Part shown: positions 10,874 to 29,784 of the stretch, piece by piece
Layout of the letters: every line of letters begins with the position of its first letter
Position numbering within the stretch: the first letter of the stretch is position 1
Assembly (NCBI RefSeq): GCF_014656375.1
Contig: NZ_BNCH01000004.1
Span: 248,001 to 312,000 of the forward strand
Direction: 5' to 3'
DNA length: 64,000 nucleotides
Origin: Aliiroseovarius zhejiangensis
GTDB taxonomy: Bacteria > Pseudomonadota > Alphaproteobacteria > Rhodobacterales > Rhodobacteraceae
The notes under the pieces: model-generated
Told to the model about the DNA's origin: nothing
The model's input: the letters and a program-made list of their open reading frames with translations, nothing else
The model's database searches: none
Translations under genes and position numbers: made by a program

Positions 10874-11116
10874 ATGTTTACCATTGAGCACGAATTTGAT
10901 GCCACTGTCGTCACCCTTGTTGACGAAGGCAGCGAGCATTTGAACGAAGATGTCACGATCAACGCCTTTGACGACTGTGTCACGCTGGAACAATGGGATT
11001 CGCGCACGGACCTGGTGCACCGGATCACGCTGTCGCTGGCGCAACTCAGGGATCTGACCGCCGCGCTGAACCTGCCCGAGGGGATATACCGCTCGACCCA
11101 GGTCAAGGACGGCTGA
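10874..11116 (+). CDS. Small conserved hypothetical protein
   Basis: 80-residue acidic protein (many D and E), no signal peptide or membrane helix. I do not recognise a family. Codon pattern and an ordered amphipathic sequence with a short hydrophobic C-terminal helix support real coding. It is divergent from the IMPACT gene (73 bases between starts) and its stop lies 14 bases inside the convergent glpK 3' end. Confidence 0.65.
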
Positions 11117-19941: not shown

Positions 19942-21984
19942 TCAGATGTCCTTTACCAGTCGCAATGCGTCATAGATCGCAGCGTGCGTGTTGCGTGCCG
20001 AGACCGCGTCCCCGATCCGAAATAACTGGAACTTGCCCTCCGGATTGGTGCGGATGGTTTGCGGGCGCCCTGCGATCAGGGCATCGTGATTCACCTCACC
20101 ACGATTGACGGACTGTTCTTTCAGATCAAAATACAGATCCGCCATCGGCATGGTGCCATAATTGACCACCACCTGATCATAGACCGCGTCGCGCGTATGT
20201 TCCGAGTAATCCGTGCCGATGGTGACCCGCAGGCGGTTGCCGTCGCGGACGATCTTCAACAGCCGTTCAGCCACCGTGAACCGCACGCCCCTGGGCTGCA
20301 TCGCCCGCATGTAAGGCACAAGGTTCATTGCCATGATATCGGGGGCAAAAACCCGGTCGGGGGTCATGACCTCGACCTGCGCCCCTACCCGTGATGCCAT
20401 CTCGGCCGCCTGCAACGCCGGGTGATCTCCACTTTCGTCATAGATCAGCACCTCGCCAGCGCATTTCGCATCACCTGCGATCACATCCCACGCGCTGACC
20501 GCCAGAGGCTGTTCGCCCGTGGTCTCGAACAGCTCGAGGTTCGGCAGCCCCCCGGTGGCGACGATCACCACATCCGGGTCCAGCGCAGTCACATCTGCGG
20601 CCTCGGCCCAGGTGTTGAAATGGAACTGCACATCCCGCGCCGCACATTGCGCCATACGCCAGTCAATGATCCCGATCATTTCACGACGCCGAGGGGATTG
20701 CGCGGTCAGGCGCACCTGCCCGCCGGGGTCAGGCTGCGCCTCGAACACCGTGACCGCATGCCCCCGTTCCGCCGCCACCCGGGCGGCTTCAAGCCCCGCA
20801 GGTCCGGCCCCCACCACGACCACTTTCTTTTGCTCGGCGGCAGGCGCGACGACATGCGGCATGGTCAGTTCGCGCCCCGTGGCCGCATTGTGCATGCACA
20901 GCGCATCCCCCGCCTGATAGATCCGGTCCAGGCAATAGGTTGCGCCCACACAGGGGCGAATGTCCTCCTCGCGCCCTTCGATGATCTTCTGCACGATATG
21001 GGGGTCGGCCATATGTGCACGGGTCATGCCGACCATGTCCAACTGCCCCGAGGCAATCGCGTGCCGCGCAGTGGCCACATCCGGAATACGCGCGGCGTGG
21101 AAGGTGGGCATGCCCACCTCGGCCCGCACCCGCCCGGCAAAATCCAGATGCGGCGAGGCAGGCGCGCCCTGAATGGGGATCATATCCGTCATCGCAGGGT
21201 CGGTGTGAATGCGTCCCCGGTTGATGTTCAGGTACTGCACCTGCCCGCTGTCACGCAGCATCCGGGCAATTTCCAACCCCATCTCAGGGTCAATGCCCCC
21301 CGCCTCGACCTCGTCCGGGGCAAAGCGTACGCCCAGGATGAACTCCTGCCCGACGCGCGCGCGCACGGCGTCAATGACATCCAGCGTCAGCTTCATCCGC
21401 GCTGCCAGATCGCCACCATAAGGTCCCTCCAGCCGGTTGGTCAGGGGCGAGATGAACTGGTCCAGCAAATGCCCATGGGTCATGATCTCGACCCCGTCCA
21501 TGCCGCCCTCTTTCATACGCTCGGCCGCATCCGCGAAATCCGATATGATCCGCGCGATGTCCCAATCCTCGGCCAGTTTCGGGAACGCCCGATGCGCCGG
21601 TTCCCTGTGCGGCGTCGAACAGACAGGCGGCAGCCAGTCGCCCTTGTTCCACCCGGTACGCCGCCCCAGATGGGTCAGCTGGATCATACAGGCCGCCCCA
21701 TGCTCATGCACCGCATCGGTCAGGTTCCGGATCCACGGCACAACCTCGTCCTTATAGGCAAGGATGTTGTTGAAGACGGGCGGGCTGTCCTTGGACACCG
21801 CCGCCGACCCCGCCGTCATCGCCATGGCAATCCCAGCCCTGGCGCGTTCGGCATGGTAGGCCGCATATCGTTCCTTGGGCATCCCGCCTTCGGGATAGGC
21901 CGGCTCATGGCTCGTCGTCATGATCCGGTTGCGCAGGGTCAAATGACCCAGTTGATAGGGCTGCAATAACGGATCGTTCGACAT
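19942..21984 (-). CDS. DgcA/StcD-like NADH:flavin oxidoreductase (N-methyl amino acid demethylase type)
   Basis: 680-residue protein of the 2,4-dienoyl-CoA reductase/trimethylamine dehydrogenase family: N-terminal OYE-like FMN barrel (residues ~1-330), an Fe-S segment, then an FAD/NAD domain with VVGAGPAGLEAA near 390. It most resembles demethylases of dimethylglycine (DgcA) and N-methylproline/stachydrine (StcD). The cluster ligand motif is C345-VGATY-C351-x11-C363, so one of the usual four cysteines is absent. ATG 21984 has AAAGGA upstream; an ATG 24 bases earlier has none. It is downstream of the MttB-family gene on the same strand, 90 bases away. Confidence 0.82.
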   Translation of the reverse strand: MSNDPLLQPYQLGHLTLRNRIMTTSHEPAYPEGGMPKERYAAYHAERARAGIAMAMTAGSAAVSKDSPPVFNNILAYKDEVVPWIRNLTDAVHEHGAACMIQLTHLGRRTGWNKGDWLPPVCSTPHREPAHRAFPKLAEDWDIARIISDFADAAERMKEGGMDGVEIMTHGHLLDQFISPLTNRLEGPYGGDLAARMKLTLDVIDAVRARVGQEFILGVRFAPDEVEAGGIDPEMGLEIARMLRDSGQVQYLNINRGRIHTDPAMTDMIPIQGAPASPHLDFAGRVRAEVGMPTFHAARIPDVATARHAIASGQLDMVGMTRAHMADPHIVQKIIEGREEDIRPCVGATYCLDRIYQAGDALCMHNAATGRELTMPHVVAPAAEQKKVVVVGAGPAGLEAARVAAERGHAVTVFEAQPDPGGQVRLTAQSPRRREMIGIIDWRMAQCAARDVQFHFNTWAEAADVTALDPDVVIVATGGLPNLELFETTGEQPLAVSAWDVIAGDAKCAGEVLIYDESGDHPALQAAEMASRVGAQVEVMTPDRVFAPDIMAMNLVPYMRAMQPRGVRFTVAERLLKIVRDGNRLRVTIGTDYSEHTRDAVYDQVVVNYGTMPMADLYFDLKEQSVNRGEVNHDALIAGRPQTIRTNPEGKFQLFRIGDAVSARNTHAAIYDALRLVKDI

Positions 21985-22013
21985 CTTCCATCCTTTCACG
22001 TGCGCCATGCCGG

Positions 22014-22069
22014 CTTTTTTCTTGTTTCAAATTTCCCGGGGGACGCCGAAGGCGGGGGGCAGCGCCCCC
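22014..22069 (-). repeat. Dispersed 3'-end element, copy 3
   Basis: Directly after the mttB-family stop on the minus strand: hairpin GGGGGCGCTGCCCCC (22055-22069), then CCCGGGAAATTTGAAACAAG and a run of A. It has the same organisation as the element after gshA. Confidence 0.75.
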
Positions 22070-22074
22070 ATCTT

Positions 22075-23634
22075 CTAGTACCAGGCATCCTCCATCGACG
22101 CTTTCCGGCGTGCCACGAAATCCTTCAATGCCTCGTCCACGGCCACATCCATCGGGGGCATTTCATACGCGGCAAGCTGCGCCTTCCAGCGCGTATTCGC
22201 ACGGCTGGCCATGTCGACCGCCCCCTGTTCGTCCCAGGTTTCCCAGGGCTGGTTGTCGTCCAGAGCGCTGTCGTAATAGGCGGTCTTGTAATGGCGCATC
22301 GTGTGTTGGGTCGAAAACAGATGCTCGCCCGGCCCCTGTTCGGCCAGCGCGTCGAAGCCCAGCGTATCCTCGTTCACCGCAACACCGTCCAGATAGGCGT
22401 GCAACGCGCCGCACAGATCGAGGTCCAGCATGAATTTCTCATAGGACATGGACAGCAGCCCATCCAGAAACCCCGCCGAATGCAAAAGGAAGTTTGCCCC
22501 GCAATGGATTGCAGACATCATCGACATCATGCTTTGCTGCATCGCCTGCGCATCCGGCAGCTTCGAGGTCGAGAAGTTGCCCGCGCAGCGCAAGGGCAGA
22601 TTCAGCCGCCGCGCCAGTTGCCCATATACAAGGCTGCCCAACGCCGGTTCCGCTGTTCCGAAGGTGGGCGATCCCGACCGCAGGGACATCGAACTGAGGA
22701 AACTGGCCAGCACGACCGGCGCACCGGGGCGCTCCAACTGCGCAATCGCGCAGGACACCATGCTTTCGGCCAGGCATTGCGCCACAGATCCCGCCATGGT
22801 CAGGGGCGACACTGCCCCTCCCAACAGAAACGGCAGATGGATCGACCCCTGCCCCGCCCGCGCGTATTCACGAATGCCTTGCGAGGTTACACCGTCGATC
22901 ACCAGGGGGCTTGTCGTGTTGAAATTGCCCATGATGACGCAATTCCGGTCGACGTAATCCGCCCCGAACAGGACGCGGCACATTTCAACACTGTCCGCAG
23001 CGCGCTCTGGCGCGGTGATCGACCCCAGAAACGGCCGGTCGGAATACCGCATATGGGCATAAACCATGTCCAGATGCCGCTTGTTCACCGGGATGTCGGT
23101 GGGTTCGCAGACCGTGCCGCCGGAATGGTGCAGCCACGGGCTGGCCTGCCCCAGCTTCACGAAATTCTGGAAATCCCCAAGCGTGCCATAGCGCCGCCCC
23201 TTGTCCAGATCCATCACGAAGGGGCTGCCGTAGGACGGCGCAAAGACGACGTTGTCGCCGCCAATCTCGACTGAACGGGCCGGGTTGCGGGCGTGTTGGG
23301 TAAATTGTGCAGGCGCAGATTTCAGGATCTCGCGGATCAGGCCGGGTGCGAATTTGATGGTCCAGCGTGCCGGGTCAAGTTGCGTGACCTCTCCGCCGGC
23401 GCGTCGAAACATCTCGACCGTGTCCGGGTCATCGCGAAACTCGATCCCGATCTCGGCCATGATGCGGTCAGCGGTGGCGTCGATCCTGTCCAGCGCCTCG
23501 TCACCCAGGATGTCGTATGTGGGAATGGCGCGCGTGATGTACGGGCGTTCAAGGTGCGGGTTTTGCCCCGGCGAGCCGTCCCGCGCCTGACGCCTGCCGC
23601 GCCCGCGGCGGGGGGCCAGTCCTGTGTCGCTCAT
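22075..23634 (-). CDS. MttB superfamily (trimethylamine/betaine:corrinoid) methyltransferase-like protein
   Basis: 519-residue TIM-barrel protein of the MttB superfamily, whose members transfer a methyl group from a quaternary or tertiary amine to a corrinoid protein. Family blocks such as YGSPFVMDL, HHSGGTVCEPTDIPVNKRHLD and GTAEPALGSLVYGQLA are present. There is no in-frame amber codon, so it is the non-pyrrolysine type typified by glycine- or proline-betaine methyltransferases. No corrinoid-binding protein or RamA-type activase is adjacent. ATG 23634 has GGAGG 5 bases upstream; the frame stays open to 24339 but would cover the divergent tetR gene. Confidence 0.87.
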   Translation of the reverse strand: MSDTGLAPRRGRGRRQARDGSPGQNPHLERPYITRAIPTYDILGDEALDRIDATADRIMAEIGIEFRDDPDTVEMFRRAGGEVTQLDPARWTIKFAPGLIREILKSAPAQFTQHARNPARSVEIGGDNVVFAPSYGSPFVMDLDKGRRYGTLGDFQNFVKLGQASPWLHHSGGTVCEPTDIPVNKRHLDMVYAHMRYSDRPFLGSITAPERAADSVEMCRVLFGADYVDRNCVIMGNFNTTSPLVIDGVTSQGIREYARAGQGSIHLPFLLGGAVSPLTMAGSVAQCLAESMVSCAIAQLERPGAPVVLASFLSSMSLRSGSPTFGTAEPALGSLVYGQLARRLNLPLRCAGNFSTSKLPDAQAMQQSMMSMMSAIHCGANFLLHSAGFLDGLLSMSYEKFMLDLDLCGALHAYLDGVAVNEDTLGFDALAEQGPGEHLFSTQHTMRHYKTAYYDSALDDNQPWETWDEQGAVDMASRANTRWKAQLAAYEMPPMDVAVDEALKDFVARRKASMEDAWY

Positions 23635-23660
23635 CGCATCCTCCCAGTTACGAGTCGCAT

Positions 23661-23697
23661 CTGACATAGATGTCAGCACATTTGACAGTTGCGTCAA
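23661..23697. promoter_or_regulatory. Tandem TetR-type operators (two TGAC-N6-GTCA sites)
   Basis: Site 1 is the perfect palindrome CTGACATAGATGTCAG (23661-23676). Site 2 is TTGACAGTTGCGTCAA (23682-23697). Both contain TGAC-N6-GTCA and are 21 bp apart, two helical turns, on one DNA face. They fill the region between the mttB-like and tetR start codons, so the TetR protein is the obvious candidate to bind and control both directions. Confidence 0.75.
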
Positions 23698-23709
23698 GTT
23701 TAATAGAAT
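23682..23709 (+). promoter_or_regulatory. Putative tetR promoter, possibly leaderless
   Basis: TTGACA (23682-23687), 16 bases, TAGAAT (23704-23709). The expected transcription start falls at or near the tetR ATG at 23716, so the message may lack a 5' leader; no Shine-Dalgarno sequence is seen. The -35 lies inside operator site 2, giving a simple autorepression geometry. Confidence 0.55.
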
Positions 23710-23715
23710 GCCCGT

Positions 23716-24333
23716 ATGAATGAAATGACGTCCCCCCGCCCCCGCGCCTCGGAACAGATGTGGCTGGATGAGGCCATGGCATTGCTGATCGAGGCAGGTG
23801 TGGATGCCGTGAAAGTCATGCCGCTGGCCAAACGTCTTGGCCTGACACGCACCGGGTTCTATCACCATTTTCGTGACCGGGACGCGTTGCTCAGCGCGAT
23901 GATCGCGCGGTGGGAAGACAAGAACACCGGCAATCTGGTGGCGCGTTGCGAAGCCTATGCCGAAACCATCTGCGAAGCGATGTTCAACCTGCAGGATTGC
24001 TGGTTCAACCCGTCGCTGTTCGACGCGCCGCTTGACAATGCGATCCGCCATTGGGCGCGGCAGGATCCGGCATTGAAGCAGCGGCTTGATGATGCCGATG
24101 CGCGCCGCAAACAGGCCGTGTCGGACATGTTCCGCCGTTTCGACTATGCCGAGGATGACGCCGAGGTCCGGACCATGGCGATCCTCTACACGCAGGTCGG
24201 CTATATTTCGATGAAGATCGAGGAAGACCCCGTGGCTCGGATCGAACGTGTGCCGGCCTATGTGGCGCTGTTTACGGGCCAAACCCCGACGGCGGCCGAG
24301 ATCGAAAGGTTCCGCGCCAGAAACGGATATTGA
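23716..24333 (+). CDS. TetR family transcriptional regulator
   Basis: 205-residue repressor-type protein. N-terminal HTH at about residues 33-56 (MPLAKRLGLTRTGFYHHFRDRDALL) and a variable helical ligand domain. It is divergent from the mttB-like/dgcA-like pair and first in the rightward set of hydrolase, dehalogenase and GNAT, with two matching operators in between. The inducer is likely a pathway substrate but unknown. An in-frame ATG at 23725 is an alternative start. Confidence 0.9.
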   Translation: MNEMTSPRPRASEQMWLDEAMALLIEAGVDAVKVMPLAKRLGLTRTGFYHHFRDRDALLSAMIARWEDKNTGNLVARCEAYAETICEAMFNLQDCWFNPSLFDAPLDNAIRHWARQDPALKQRLDDADARRKQAVSDMFRRFDYAEDDAEVRTMAILYTQVGYISMKIEEDPVARIERVPAYVALFTGQTPTAAEIERFRARNGY

Positions 24334-24417
24334 ATCCAATATGGGCTGGCGCCGTCTTTCCGTCCATGCTCAAGTGATTCCATTGCGAACAGAACGATGT
24401 GGCAGGGGAACGCGGGC

Positions 24418-26073
24418 ATGGTGCCAAACATACTTTTCATCATGTATGACCAGTTGCGGTTCGATTACCTTAGCTGTGCCGGACACCCGACCCTCGACAC
24501 CCCAAATTTCGACCGTGTGGCCGCGCGCGGCGTTCGGTTTGACCGCGCCTATTGCCAGTCGCCCGTCTGCGGCGCCAGCCGGATGAGCACCTATACCGGG
24601 CGCTATGTCTCGTCACACGGGGCGTCGTTCAACAATTTCCCGCTGAAGGTCGGCGAAATGACCATGGGTGACCATCTGCGCAAGACGGGGATGGACTGTT
24701 GGCTGATCGGCAAGACCCATATGAAGGCCGATGCCGAAGGGATGGCGCGGCTGGGCCTGTCACCGGACAGCGTGATCGGCGCACGTGTTGAAGAGTGCGG
24801 ATTTGATGTCTGGGTCCGTGACGATGGGCTTTGGGCAGAAGGACCGGATGGGTTTTATGACCGGAAACGGTCGCCCTATAACGAATACCTGAAATCCAGG
24901 GGCTATCCGTCCGACAACCCGTGGCATCACAATGCCAATGCGGGTGTCACGGATGCGGGCGACATCGCCTCCGGCTTTCTGATGATGCACGCAGACAAGC
25001 CCGCCAATATCCGCGAAGAAGACAGCGAGACCCCCTGGCTGACGCGGCGCACGATTGATTTCATCGAGGCGCAGAAAGGCAACGGGCCGTGGTGCGCCCA
25101 TGTCAGCTTCATCAAGCCGCATTGGCCCTATATCGTGCCCGCGCCGTATCACGACATGTATGGCGTGGATGACATCAAACCCGTGATCCGGTCGGACGCC
25201 GAACGCCGCAACCCGCACCCGGTTTACGGTGCCTACATGGATGGCGGCATTGGCACGGCCTTTTCGCGCGACGAGGTGCGCGAGACCGTGATCCCCGCCT
25301 ATATGGGGCTGATCAAGCAATGTGACGACCAGTTGGGGCGGCTGCTGGATTACCTTGAGGACAGCGGGCAAGCCGACAACACGGTGATCGTTCTGACCTC
25401 GGATCACGGCGATTACCTTGGCGATCACTGGTTGGGAGAGAAAGATCTGTTTCACGACCCATCGGTGCGGGTGCCGCTGATCATCGCCGACCCGCGCCCT
25501 GCCGCCGATGCCACGCGCGGCACGGTCTGCGACAAGCTGGTGGAACAGATCGACCTGGCCGCCACCTTTGTCGACATGGCCGCAGGCGAGGTGCCACGAC
25601 ACATTCTTGAAGGCCGGTCACTGGTGCCTGTTCTGGAAGGGAAAAACACCGCGTGGCGCGAATTTGCGATCAGCGAATATGACTATTCGACCTCGGGGGC
25701 GGCGACCCGGCTGGGGCTGGACCCAAAGGATTGCCGCCTGTTCATGGTCGTGACCGATCGCTGGAAGATGATGCATGCCGAAGGCGGCTTTCGCCCGATG
25801 CTGTTTGACTTGCAAAACGACCCCGACGAGTTGGTCGACCTGGGCGCATCGGATGATCATGCCGACATCATTGCGGCGCTTTATGACAAGCTGTTTGAAT
25901 GGGCGCGGCGGCAATCCCAGCGCACCACGGTAACGGACGCCCAGATCGTGGCACGGCGCAAGGGCGGGGCGGGTCGTGTCGGGGTATTGTTGGGGCTTTA
26001 CGGGGACGAAGATATCCCCGCAGAGTATCTGACCGCCTATACCGGCAAAGCCACACCCGCGGACACGGGCTGA
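24418..26073 (+). CDS. Formylglycine-dependent sulfatase / phosphonate monoester hydrolase-like enzyme
   Basis: 551-residue alkaline-phosphatase-superfamily hydrolase, cytoplasmic (no signal peptide). C51-G-A-S-R55 is the C-x-P/A-x-R site where the cysteine becomes formylglycine. Metal ligands appear to be D11-Q12 and the D-H of TSDHGD; the D-Q...D-H set is, as I recall, that of phosphonate monoester hydrolases rather than classical arylsulfatases (D-D...D-N), and these enzymes are often promiscuous for sulfate and phosphate esters. ATG 24418 follows AGGGGAA; an ATG 21 bases upstream is weaker. The dehalogenase start is 2 bases after the stop. Confidence 0.85.
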   Translation: MVPNILFIMYDQLRFDYLSCAGHPTLDTPNFDRVAARGVRFDRAYCQSPVCGASRMSTYTGRYVSSHGASFNNFPLKVGEMTMGDHLRKTGMDCWLIGKTHMKADAEGMARLGLSPDSVIGARVEECGFDVWVRDDGLWAEGPDGFYDRKRSPYNEYLKSRGYPSDNPWHHNANAGVTDAGDIASGFLMMHADKPANIREEDSETPWLTRRTIDFIEAQKGNGPWCAHVSFIKPHWPYIVPAPYHDMYGVDDIKPVIRSDAERRNPHPVYGAYMDGGIGTAFSRDEVRETVIPAYMGLIKQCDDQLGRLLDYLEDSGQADNTVIVLTSDHGDYLGDHWLGEKDLFHDPSVRVPLIIADPRPAADATRGTVCDKLVEQIDLAATFVDMAAGEVPRHILEGRSLVPVLEGKNTAWREFAISEYDYSTSGAATRLGLDPKDCRLFMVVTDRWKMMHAEGGFRPMLFDLQNDPDELVDLGASDDHADIIAALYDKLFEWARRQSQRTTVTDAQIVARRKGGAGRVGVLLGLYGDEDIPAEYLTAYTGKATPADTG

Positions 26074-26075
26074 GC

Positions 26076-29000
26076 GTGCGGCTGTTTTCCACCAGGAACC
26101 GTCCGGTACATCTGGGGCCTTATCCGCTGAAAGGGTTGACGCGCGAAATCGTGGATCACGGTCTGACCGACCTGCTCCCATTGACCCCGGTGCGTTTTGA
26201 CCGTGCCGAACAACCGGACAGCATCGTCAATGCAATGGCCCCGTATCAGGCGGCACTGGACGCGATACGGGACGGCGACGTGAACCCGGCGCGGGCCACC
26301 ATCCCCGATGATCCCACCGCGCGCGCCGAGCATCTGAAAGCGTTCGGGTATTTCTCGGACGCGTCCATGGTGGGTATCGCGGATCTGAAGGCCGGTGATT
26401 TTCTCGGCGAGCCGATCGTGAACCCGGACACTGAGGCGCTTGTCACATCGCTCCTCGGCCGTGAAGTACGCACTTTGGCGGCGGGGATCGACGCGTTGAT
26501 GGCAGAGTTGCGTGACAGCCTTGGGGCATCGCCGCGCGAGATCGGCAGCCACCGGCACGCTTTGGTTTTTCTCTATGAATATCACCGCGACCCCAGACCG
26601 GATGAGCCGGGGGCCGCTTGGATCATGGAGGCGCAGGCACAGCGGGCCTGCCTGCTGGCAGCCGAGACGGCCATTGTCATCGCCAACTACCTGCGCCTTC
26701 TGGGGTTCGACGCCAAGGCGCATACCGGGGCGGCGACGGATGTTGATTTGAACCGTCTGGCGGTGACGGCTGGGCTGGCCACTGTCGAAGGCCAGGAGGT
26801 TGTCGCCCCATGGATCGGCCCACGATTTGGACTGGCCGCCGTCACGACCGAGATGCAGTTGACGCCCGACAAGCCCCTTGCCGCCCTTTCGAAACAACCA
26901 TGGCACGAAATCAACGGTCCGGCGTGGTGGCTGGGGACACGGAGTGCGAAATCCGCATTGAACCGCGATCCTTATGCCAAACGCGACTACGTGATGGGCG
27001 CCCACCCGTTCGAGCGTCTGAAGCGGGTTGATGCGCCGACTACCTATATCGACGAGCCCAATGTTGCCCGCGTGCCAAAACGCGCAGACATGTTCGCCCG
27101 CGCGCAGTTCGGCGACATGGGCAAACATCTGCAAGACAGTTCGACCGGTGGGATGCATGTGCGCAAAGCGGCCCCCAGCTATGCCCAGCGCCGCGCCCTG
27201 GGGGTGTTGACCCCGTTGCAGGACGGCCCCGTCGCGGATCAAGCCAACCGCCCTGACGACCCGATAGAGAACGCCGCCGCGCTGAAGGCCGCCTGCTATT
27301 TCCTTGGCATCGACGCCGTTGGCACCAGCCGCTGCCCCGACTGGGCATGGTACAGCCACGACGCCACAGGGGTTGAAATCGTCCCGTCCCATGATCAGGC
27401 GATCTCAATGATCGTCGATCAGGGGTTTGAGACGATGGAGGGCGCATCCGGTGACGACTGGATCGCCGTCAGCCAGTCCATGAGGGCCTATCTTCGGTTC
27501 TCGCTGATCGGCGGCGTGATCGCGCAGCACATTCGCAACCTTGGCTATTCCGCCAAAGCGCACACCGTGATGGACGGGACCGTGCTGCAACCGCCCTTGC
27601 TGTTGCTGGCGGGCCTGGGCGAGGTCAGCCGGATCGGCGAGGTTATCCTGAACCCCTATCTCGGCCCGCGCCTGAAATCGGGCGTGGTGACGACGGACAT
27701 GCCCATTGCGCATGACAAACCCATCGACTTCGGCCTGCAACAGTTCTGCGAAGCCTGCAACAAATGCGCGCGGGAATGCCCGTCGGGGGCGATCACGGCC
27801 GGACCGAAACTGATGTTCAACGGGTACGAGATCTGGAAGTCCGACAGCCAGAAATGCACAACCTATCGCGTGACCCAACCCGGCGGGGCAATGTGCGGGC
27901 GTTGCATGAAAACCTGCCCCTGGAACCTTGAGGGTCTGTTTGCACAGGCTCCGTTCCGCTGGGCGGCGTCGAACCTGCCGGGTGCGGCCCCGGTCTTGGC
28001 CCGGCTGGATGATGCGGTCGGCAACGGTGGTCTGAACGACACCAAGAAATGGTGGTGGGATCTGAAGCTTGGAGAGGATGGCGGCTATCACCCGACCGAC
28101 GACCCGGTGAACCGCCGCGACCTCAGCCGTGATCTGGATTTACGCTACGAGGATCAGACGCTGGCGGTCTACCCCGCCCCTCTTGCGCCACCACCTTATC
28201 CCTATCCGTTCCCGATGGACCGCGAGGCGGGCATCGCGGCCTATCAGGCGTTGATCCCGGCCAGCGAATACCGTGCGCGGCTGGCATCCGGGGATATGAC
28301 GATGATCCACCGCTATTCCATTCCCGATGACGCCCCGGTACTGCAATTGCTGGTGAAGCGCGTTGAACAGATGGCGGAAGGAGTGACGAAATACGAGCTC
28401 GCATCGCTTGACGGAACGCCGCTGCCGGAATGGACGGCGGGCGCGCATCTGGATGTGCTGGTTTCGCCCGAATACCTGCGCCAATATTCGCTGTCCGGCG
28501 ATCCATCGGACCGGATGACCTATCAGATCGGCGTCCTGCGCGAACCGAACGGGCGCGGCGGATCAGACCTGCTGCACAGATTCTTTACCGAGGGCCGCAA
28601 AGTCTTTGTCGCAAAGCCAATCAACCACTTTGAACTTGATGAAAGCGCCACCAAGACCTTCCTGATGGGCGGAGGGATCGGCATCACGCCGATGATCGCC
28701 TTTGCCCACCGGCTGCATGCCATCGGTGCGGATTTCGCGCTGCACTATTCGGTCAGCCGTCGGGCAGAGGCCGGGTTCCTGGCCGACCTCGCCGCGGTGC
28801 CATGGGCGGATCGCGTGCATCTGCATGTCTCGGACGAAGGCACACGGGCTGATTTCGATGCGATTCTGACCGGCGCGCCTGATGGCGCCCATGTCTATTG
28901 CTGCGGCGCGGATCGCTACATGAGCGCAGTGATGGACGCCGCCGAGCGTCAGGGCATTCCCGAACCCGCCCGGCATCTTGAATACTTCACCCCGCCTGAA

Positions 29001-29282
29001 CAGCCGGAATATGAGAACCATCCCTTCGCCCTGACACTGAAGGATGGGCGCCGGATCGAGGTGCCTGAGGACCAAACTGCCGCCGAGGCGCTGAATGCGG
29101 CAGGCATTCATGTGGACGTGAAGTGTTCAGACGGGATCTGTGGCGTCTGCAAATGCGGCGTGCTCGCGGGCGAGGTGGAACACCGTGACTTCGTCCTTTC
29201 CAATGCCCAGCGCGCGCGCAGCATGATCCTGTGCCAAAGCCGCGCCGCCGATCCGGGTGGCGAGATCGAAATCGACCTATAG
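26076..29282 (+). CDS. Self-sufficient reductive dehalogenase fusion (RdhA + FNR-type reductase + 2Fe-2S ferredoxin)
   Basis: 1068-residue protein with the order seen in catabolic, NAD(P)H-linked dehalogenases such as BhbA of Comamonas. Residues ~1-640: RdhA-like B12 region containing an internal duplication (R207-LLGFDAKAHT and R487-NLGYSAKAHT, offset 280) and two 4Fe-4S motifs: C558, C561, C564, C568-P and C594, C607, C610, C614-P. Residues ~740-975: FNR-type flavin/NAD module with RQYSLSG (802) and GGGIGITPM (865). Residues ~980-1068: ferredoxin with C1017, C1022, C1025, C1053. Y426 and K494 are candidate catalytic residues by analogy with NpRdhA. No Tat signal and no membrane-anchor gene, so it is cytoplasmic. 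GTG start 2 bases after the hydrolase stop; a longer frame into that gene is rejected. Confidence 0.88.
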   Translation: MRLFSTRNRPVHLGPYPLKGLTREIVDHGLTDLLPLTPVRFDRAEQPDSIVNAMAPYQAALDAIRDGDVNPARATIPDDPTARAEHLKAFGYFSDASMVGIADLKAGDFLGEPIVNPDTEALVTSLLGREVRTLAAGIDALMAELRDSLGASPREIGSHRHALVFLYEYHRDPRPDEPGAAWIMEAQAQRACLLAAETAIVIANYLRLLGFDAKAHTGAATDVDLNRLAVTAGLATVEGQEVVAPWIGPRFGLAAVTTEMQLTPDKPLAALSKQPWHEINGPAWWLGTRSAKSALNRDPYAKRDYVMGAHPFERLKRVDAPTTYIDEPNVARVPKRADMFARAQFGDMGKHLQDSSTGGMHVRKAAPSYAQRRALGVLTPLQDGPVADQANRPDDPIENAAALKAACYFLGIDAVGTSRCPDWAWYSHDATGVEIVPSHDQAISMIVDQGFETMEGASGDDWIAVSQSMRAYLRFSLIGGVIAQHIRNLGYSAKAHTVMDGTVLQPPLLLLAGLGEVSRIGEVILNPYLGPRLKSGVVTTDMPIAHDKPIDFGLQQFCEACNKCARECPSGAITAGPKLMFNGYEIWKSDSQKCTTYRVTQPGGAMCGRCMKTCPWNLEGLFAQAPFRWAASNLPGAAPVLARLDDAVGNGGLNDTKKWWWDLKLGEDGGYHPTDDPVNRRDLSRDLDLRYEDQTLAVYPAPLAPPPYPYPFPMDREAGIAAYQALIPASEYRARLASGDMTMIHRYSIPDDAPVLQLLVKRVEQMAEGVTKYELASLDGTPLPEWTAGAHLDVLVSPEYLRQYSLSGDPSDRMTYQIGVLREPNGRGGSDLLHRFFTEGRKVFVAKPINHFELDESATKTFLMGGGIGITPMIAFAHRLHAIGADFALHYSVSRRAEAGFLADLAAVPWADRVHLHVSDEGTRADFDAILTGAPDGAHVYCCGADRYMSAVMDAAERQGIPEPARHLEYFTPPEQPEYENHPFALTLKDGRRIEVPEDQTAAEALNAAGIHVDVKCSDGICGVCKCGVLAGEVEHRDFVLSNAQRARSMILCQSRAADPGGEIEIDL

Positions 29283-29310
29283 AAAGACACGAACCAGAAG
29301 AGGACATGCG

Positions 29311-29784
29311 GTGGAAACACGACGGGCGGTGATGGAAGATGCGGCAGACATCAGCATCTTCCTGAAAGAACTGGCAGACCTTGGGAAACGAAGCCGACCG
29401 TGGGACGAAGCGTTCGTTCGTGATTACTACATCAACAATCCCGATGGCATTCGATGCAGCGTGGCAGTGGACGACGATGGTACGATCCTTGGGATGCAGG
29501 CCCTGTCGCTTGCGGTGCCTGACAACAACTATGGGGTGACGCCCGGTTGGGGCATCATCGGCACGCATGTCAAACCAAATGCAGCCCGGCGCGGTGTCGG
29601 AAAAGCCCTGTTCGCCGCGACGACCAAGGCGGCTCGGGATGCAGGCCTCATGCATATCGACGCGACCATCGGGGCCACAAATGCCGAAGGGCTGGGGTAT
29701 TATGAGGCGATGGGATTTCGCACTTACAGGACGAAGGACGGTGCAGTCTGCAAAAGGTTTCGCGTCCCTCAGGGCGCTGACTGA
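29311..29784 (+). CDS. GNAT family N-acetyltransferase
   Basis: 157-residue single-domain acetyltransferase. Acetyl-CoA motif HVKPNAARRGVGKALFAA and the C-terminal GLGYYEAMGFRTYR block are clear. The GTG at 29311 has GAGGA 7 bases upstream; the frame extends left into the end of the dehalogenase gene without support. It is 28 bases downstream of the dehalogenase stop and probably the last gene of that transcript, so it may act on a pathway intermediate or an aromatic/amine substrate; this is inference. Confidence 0.82.
   Translation: METRRAVMEDAADISIFLKELADLGKRSRPWDEAFVRDYYINNPDGIRCSVAVDDDGTILGMQALSLAVPDNNYGVTPGWGIIGTHVKPNAARRGVGKALFAATTKAARDAGLMHIDATIGATNAEGLGYYEAMGFRTYRTKDGAVCKRFRVPQGAD

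Follow-up and report, generated by a model that had tools for sequence, protein, structure and literature searches.

A 64,000-nt stretch of Aliiroseovarius zhejiangensis contig NZ_BNCH01000004.1 (the window; its genome is G000 below) carries six genes around the promoter of a TetR-family regulator. An MttB-superfamily methyltransferase and an OYE/TMADH-type flavoprotein (OYE) lie on one side. TetR, a formylglycine-type arylsulfatase, a reductive dehalogenase fused to its own reductase (RdhA) and a GNAT acetyltransferase lie on the other (Table 1). We consider it probable that two modules stand side by side here. The sulfatase and RdhA would open brominated aryl sulfates for ring cleavage, and TetR with the divergent MttB-OYE pair would form a separate demethylation module. 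A sequence-only reading had combined all six genes in one pathway. Its genes, their order and the 2 bases between the sulfatase stop codon and the RdhA GTG agree with the open reading frames. Of its linked families, the sulfatase-RdhA pair is supported by adjacency in six lineages, by co-occurrence and by ring-cleavage operons, while MttB and RdhA show no co-occurrence across genomes.

Judged by its sequence, the window RdhA belongs with JtRdhA among the self-sufficient catabolic dehalogenases; self-sufficiency had already been proposed in the sequence-only reading. Besides the TIGR02486 match, its closest solved relative is the catabolic NpRdhA from Nitratireductor pacificus (4ras, 536 bits; also 6zxu). 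The active site is conserved, with F291, S422, M423, Y426, K488 and R552 of NpRdhA all kept in the alignment (6/6). S422, K488 and R552 bind the substrate hydroxyl in NpRdhA (PMC7565698). Unlike the window protein, the solved NpRdhA chains (704-725 aa) have no C-terminal reductase, and they align to about residue 739 of 1068. Two [4Fe-4S] motifs and a C-terminal FMN/NAD(P)H/[2Fe-2S] reductase module are found in the same window chain. This C-terminal part resembles 2pia (phthalate dioxygenase reductase, matched by residues 750-1059) and P450-reductase fusions. The N-terminus VRLFSTRNRP is aligned at residue 1 of NpRdhA, which supports the GTG start. No twin-arginine motif is seen there by eye, which we take as absence of a twin-arginine translocation signal. 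Pfam PF13486 gives no RdhA match in the own genome, and likewise none in any of 14 control genomes.

JtRdhA from Jhaorihella thermophila carries out NADPH-dependent dehalogenation of bromo- and iodophenols, and the chlorinated compounds tried were not turned over (PMC10463259). It is likewise an RdhA fused to a phthalate-dioxygenase-reductase-type module with the active-site residues F, S, M, Y, K and R, a likeness drawn from the published description rather than from direct sequence comparison. A report of 2026 describes a Roseobacter debrominase as well (PMC13101508), and the enzyme type is thus already known. The window RdhA probably strips bromine from phenols as well. For JtRdhA the main text of PMC10463259 gives no gene context ("sulfatase", "operon" and "neighbo-" are absent from it).

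The neighbouring hydrolase gives a near full-length match to another AS/PMH subgroup member, SpAS2 of Silicibacter pomeroyi (4upl, 798 bits), followed by SpAS1 (4upi, 627 bits). By eye it carries CGASR and SDHGD, fitting the C/S-X-P/A-X-R motif and the Asp-His metal ligands described for the AS/PMH class (PMC12421950). For SpAS2, the available text of PMC5870055 reports no choline-O-sulfatase activity and no natural substrate, whereas the window sulfatase is tied to RdhA. The enzyme probably removes sulfate from the same kind of molecule that RdhA uses.

The association was surveyed in 394 genomes of the family, nearly all from different genera. RdhA matches at E 1e-60 are present in 168 genomes, of which 152 were retained; the 16 others (best E 7e-75 to 6e-61) were removed as probable reductase-domain matches, not checked individually. 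With a presence threshold of E 1e-150, the sulfatase is found in 113/152 RdhA genomes versus 69/242 others (odds ratio 7.3, P 2.7e-19). At an identity of at least 60% the counts are 93/152 versus 52/242 (odds ratio 5.8, P 3e-15). The two genes are also found together at the locus level. We read 121 RdhA loci, 120 of them fetched plus the window. Of the 120 loci in which RdhA was called, 18 offer under 6 kb of sequence on one flank. The sulfatase occurs no more than about 6 kb away from RdhA at seven of the 121, namely the window, L031, L072, L091, L137, L061 and L111. These represent six lineages, since the window and L031 belong to one genus. The chance expectation is 0.4 to 1.2 loci (P 4e-6 to 1.6e-3), if we assume a 13 kb target and genomes of 3.9 Mb that carry 1 to 3 copies of the sulfatase. 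Among the 20 loci that were fetched first, the sulfatase adjoins RdhA only in the same-genus genome G373. The genes of L111 were missed by a gene caller tuned to high G+C and were recovered by tblastn. A sulfatase-like gene in L156 was dropped at 28% identity.

Several relatives embed the pair in longer gene runs. One strand of L091 (8014-18017) encodes the sulfatase, an alkylsulfatase-like hydrolase of the metallo-beta-lactamase (MBL) fold that carries Alkyl_sulf_dimr, a DctM permease, an NMT1-type binding protein, an SDR and RdhA. One strand of L111 (2161-14736) encodes LigA, LigB, a Gfo/Idh-type dehydrogenase, the sulfatase, an MBL hydrolase (63% identical to that of L091), an SDR, RdhA, a PIG-L protein, LigK, 4-oxalomesaconate tautomerase and an amidohydrolase. 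LigA, LigB, LigK and the tautomerase score above their NCBIfam cut-offs. The SDR lies near the coniferyl-alcohol dehydrogenase model, and the best model of the amidohydrolase is 4-sulfomuconolactone hydrolase, both under cut-off. The remaining L111 genes would presumably complete a protocatechuate 4,5-cleavage route. In L228 (an Ahrensia metagenome-assembled genome) and L234 (Oricola), RdhA is followed by a DUF1932 protein, an extradiol dioxygenase (catechol 2,3-dioxygenase model, slightly under cut-off) and relatives of PIG-L, LigK and the tautomerase. Relatives of these last three are found about 5.7 kb from RdhA in L081, and L265 has the sulfatase, DctM, NMT1 and RdhA together. Taken together, these runs suggest that the substrates are sulfate esters of aromatic compounds. 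The red alga Vertebrata lanosa contains lanosol-4,7-disulfate as a major metabolite (PMC9322897), and from the gene content we infer that brominated aryl sulfates such as lanosol sulfates are the substrate of the pair.

In the proposed mechanism, the arylsulfatase would cleave the sulfate ester of a brominated phenol and free its phenolic hydroxyl, which would be held by the Ser/Lys/Arg pocket of RdhA. Electrons would pass from NADPH via RdhA's own FMN, [2Fe-2S] and [4Fe-4S] centres to cobalamin. There the ortho-bromine would be swapped for hydrogen, and the hydroxyaryl product would enter ring cleavage. What is observed is the domain architecture and active site of RdhA, the class of the sulfatase, the co-occurrence and adjacency of the two genes and, in a few relatives, their operons with transport and ring-cleavage genes; the substrates and the order of steps are our deduction.

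Several observations weigh against this assignment. No sulfatase is present in the stretch read at 114/121 RdhA loci, and 39/152 RdhA genomes have none at E 1e-150. The co-occurrence tests ignore the species tree and genome completeness. In the eight Aliiroseovarius-group loci described below, the sulfatase is absent beside RdhA in five while the trio of TetR, MttB and OYE is retained in six, a pattern that in this group speaks more for the trio than for the sulfatase. Formylglycine-generating enzyme PF03781 was not found in the own genome though a cysteine-type sulfatase is present, which leaves sulfatase maturation unexplained; 4/14 control genomes match it, and other maturation routes were not searched. 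Furthermore, the own genome holds one LigB-family gene, and a search made without positive control gave no match there to the LigB of L111.

The TetR-MttB-OYE trio is a free-standing module and looks separate from the sulfatase-RdhA pair. We fetched 20 module loci (L158-L177), chosen among the best matches and not randomly. The OYE orthologue adjoins MttB in 19 of them (exception L163), and TetR faces MttB in 17 by gene calls and in 18 with tblastn. In the remaining two another gene faces MttB, of LysR type in the one scanned. RdhA is found in none of the 20. The sulfatase is present in one, L158, and is followed by a glycine-betaine-type ABC transporter. A second OYE-type enzyme (11/20), an F420_oxidored-type protein (8/20) and a proline-racemase-family enzyme (two loci) also occur. 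We presume that such genes would fit betaine catabolism, perhaps of proline betaine, which is a guess. In G373 the sulfatase-RdhA pair lies at one locus and the module on a different contig. Across the 394 genomes the MttB orthologue shows no association with RdhA (23/152 versus 50/242, odds ratio 0.68, P 0.18), where the orthologue set is the 73 genomes with a match of at least 63%, irrespective of whether OYE and TetR accompany it in every one. OYE gives 79/152 versus 137/242 (odds ratio 0.83, not significant). A match to the window MttB at E 1e-20 is present in 373/394 genomes (at most three counted per genome).

The nearest solved relatives of the window MttB are 4yyc, 2qne and 9yce (glycine betaine methyltransferase). 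In R. pomeroyi, glycine betaine is demethylated by MtgB with MtgC and MtgD (PMC12478193). The window MttB shares PF06253 and the lack of an in-frame amber codon with these MtgB-type enzymes and differs from them as a divergent member. A second MttB-family member of the own genome is 48% identical to it. The methyl donor for MttB would be a quaternary amine (or sulfonium) and the acceptor a corrinoid protein whose gene lies elsewhere; another N-methyl group is probably taken off by the flavoenzyme. No cognate corrinoid protein gene is found among the six genes, and one PF02607 candidate is present elsewhere in the genome; this lowers only the claim of a self-contained MttB operon. The earlier idea of a "corrinoid-linked" unit was rejected as a unifying principle; a shared need for B12 does not by itself link the arms. 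MttB-superfamily genes do occur near RdhA in 13/121 loci, but matches to the window MttB are spread over the 373/394 genomes given above. By counts only, nine of these 13 belong to one other subfamily, 33-39% identical to the window MttB, and probably reflect few events because the loci share further neighbours with each other. L135, L136, L153 and L155 share a block in which RdhA is preceded by a MarR-like gene, and the opposite strand carries an HAD-phosphatase-like gene and an MttB-family gene of another subfamily (MarR and HAD assigned from a reading of L136 by eye).

An observation of its own concerns the OYE, which the sequence-only reading had called DgcA/StcD-like and for which the analysis shows an OYE/TMADH-type architecture. 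The window enzyme and its 19 orthologues (L158-L177) carry the cysteine motif CVGA(T/N)YC in 20/20 cases, and 11 paralogues carry C-x-S-C-N-x-x-C, a motif which we take to serve a [4Fe-4S] cluster. The change of the second cysteine to alanine is perhaps a conserved loss of a cluster ligand in the module enzymes.

Alternatively, RdhA could be a debrominase that works on its own in detoxification or salvage and moves from one gene neighbourhood to another, with the sulfatase beside it by chance or shared ecology; we regard this as unlikely. RdhA is kept in 152/394 genomes, and no neighbour family except RdhA itself occurs in more than 10 of the 121 loci, in line with such drifting. However, the recurrence of the sulfatase nearby in six lineages, the operons of L091 and L111 that share sulfatase, MBL hydrolase and SDR, the sulfatase with a transporter in L265, and the ring-cleavage genes adjoining RdhA in L111, L228 and L234 all speak against it.

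The original proposal, in which a single marine compound loses its methyl, sulfate and halogen groups in one TetR-controlled pathway, looks improbable to us, although close relatives lend it some support. A scan of named genomes gave 80 RdhA loci (L260 and L072 are apparently the same contig). Eight of these cluster with the window: seven come from Aliiroseovarius records and one from a metagenome-assembled genome; as the loci were found by RdhA, RdhA is constant by query choice. The trio is found at the same site beside RdhA in six of the eight (L188-L193). The neighbourhood is thus conserved in close relatives, and the claim of one regulated unit is partly right, though only near this genus. 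Even there the trio is missing beside RdhA in 2/8, the sulfatase in 5/8 (present in three) and GNAT in 5/8 (present in three). Among the remaining 72 loci the trio stands beside RdhA in none and the sulfatase in two. Where the sulfatase is absent, TetR lies directly upstream of RdhA (L189-L192), and the operators are conserved. In L158, which belongs to G173 of another genus, the sulfatase also follows the trio's TetR. Methyl, sulfate and halogen groups are combined in one known natural product, 4-sulfo-7-dimethylsulfonium lanosol (PMC9322897).

Against these points, MttB orthologue and RdhA do not co-occur, the module loci have no RdhA, and the L158 sulfatase leads into the transporter instead of RdhA. 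The synteny of the region also takes in flanking genes of other kinds, and 3/10 group loci in the RdhA tree (L031, L186, L187) keep RdhA without the trio. In this tree, some forks of which are weakly supported, the basal A. lamellibrachiae has the trio, which recurs patchily further up. The trio-less loci share with the window a stretch beginning at the last TetR codons, which suggests loss of the trio. This stretch may be a deletion scar of the TetR 3' end or a retained operator (the palindrome at 24327-24342). The trio-RdhA arrangement is probably ancestral to the Aliiroseovarius group and eroding. Among the loci read, the module stands beside RdhA in this group only.

A narrower form, confined to the Aliiroseovarius group, is more doubtful still. 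Its TetR divergon would degrade a marine onium-bearing bromophenol sulfate, such as a sulfated dimethylsulfonium bromophenol or an N-methylated bromotyramine sulfate, with demethylation by MttB and the flavoenzyme, desulfation by the sulfatase and debromination by RdhA. If true, two of four steps would be corrinoid chemistry in an aerobe. Finally, that the hydrolase is a phosphonate monoester hydrolase, the other half of the earlier sulfate/phosphonate assignment, is very improbable: it belongs to the AS/PMH subgroup and PehA is its best NCBIfam model (290.9 bits against a cut-off of 900), but the phosphonate monoester hydrolase 2vqr reaches only 214 bits, far below SpAS2, whose tabulated efficiency is 2.1e5 on p-nitrophenyl sulfate versus 4.0e2 on phosphonate, about 500x (PMC12421950).

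Returning to the two-module arrangement, the recurrent sulfatase link, together with the uptake genes and the extradiol cleavage genes (protocatechuate-type among them) of a few genomes, names a testable class of natural substrates for self-sufficient RdhA, an enzyme characterised in vitro on brominated phenols. The class is brominated aryl sulfates, of the kind made by Vertebrata lanosa. The pair would give common relatives of A. zhejiangensis a part in the marine turnover of organobromine and organosulfate compounds, and the adjoining methyltransferase genes are not to be taken as part of the same pathway. In one literature collection (others were not searched) we found no earlier report of an RdhA-sulfatase pair and no paper on catabolic reductive dehalogenases together with Rhodobacteraceae. 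For marine Desulfatiglans-related single cells, reductive dehalogenase and sulfatase genes were reported as separate topics (PMC6129605).

Table 1. Genes and regulatory elements of the locus, in window coordinates.
Feature	Position	Strand	Basis or remark
OYE/TMADH-type flavoprotein oxidoreductase, Oxidored_FMN + Pyr_redox_2	19942..22008	-	domain profiles; second gene of demethylation arm
MttB-superfamily methyltransferase	22075..23634	-	MTTB 709 bits; PF06253 full length; no in-frame amber codon
Divergent promoter region between MttB and TetR, two palindromes	23635..23715	.	sequence patterns
TetR-family regulator, probably of MttB-OYE and of itself (role inferred)	23716..24333	+	
ATATTG-N4-CAATAT palindrome ATATTGAATCCAATAT spanning the TetR stop codon	24327..24342	.	
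Formylglycine-type arylsulfatase, AS/PMH subgroup	24397..26073	+	alternative internal start possible, ATG at 24418
Self-sufficient RdhA-reductase fusion, GTG start	26076..29282	+	TIGR02486 200 bits, cut-off 160
GNAT acetyltransferase	29257..29784	+	26-base overlap with RdhA

The operators of the sequence-only reading are present between MttB and TetR. Two TGACN6GTCA palindromes are found, TGACATAGATGTCA at 23662-23675 and TGACAGTTGCGTCA at 23683-23696, 21 bp apart. At least one such site occurs in 20/25 TetR|MttB intergenic regions examined, and the paired operator that separates the arms is probably bound by TetR. A single site carries little weight, since the window holds seven matches versus 0.96 expected. 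A TTGACA-16-TAGAAT box at 23682-23709 points toward TetR and overlaps the second palindrome; such boxes are no commoner than in shuffles. The hyphenated palindrome at 24327-24342 is perfect, with 0.04 matches expected in the window at no more than one mismatch. L031 and L186, which have no TetR at that place, retain it ahead of the sulfatase. Conservation of the stretch directly upstream of the sulfatase where TetR is gone hints at a separate promoter, which the sulfatase-RdhA module may own. The demethylation module would long have stood upstream of it in the Aliiroseovarius group, and TetR may partly co-regulate both; through its conserved operators, one signal could control the two arms there. 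The five TGACN6GTCA matches outside the cluster lie at 10969, 33485, 52387, 53707 and 58193.

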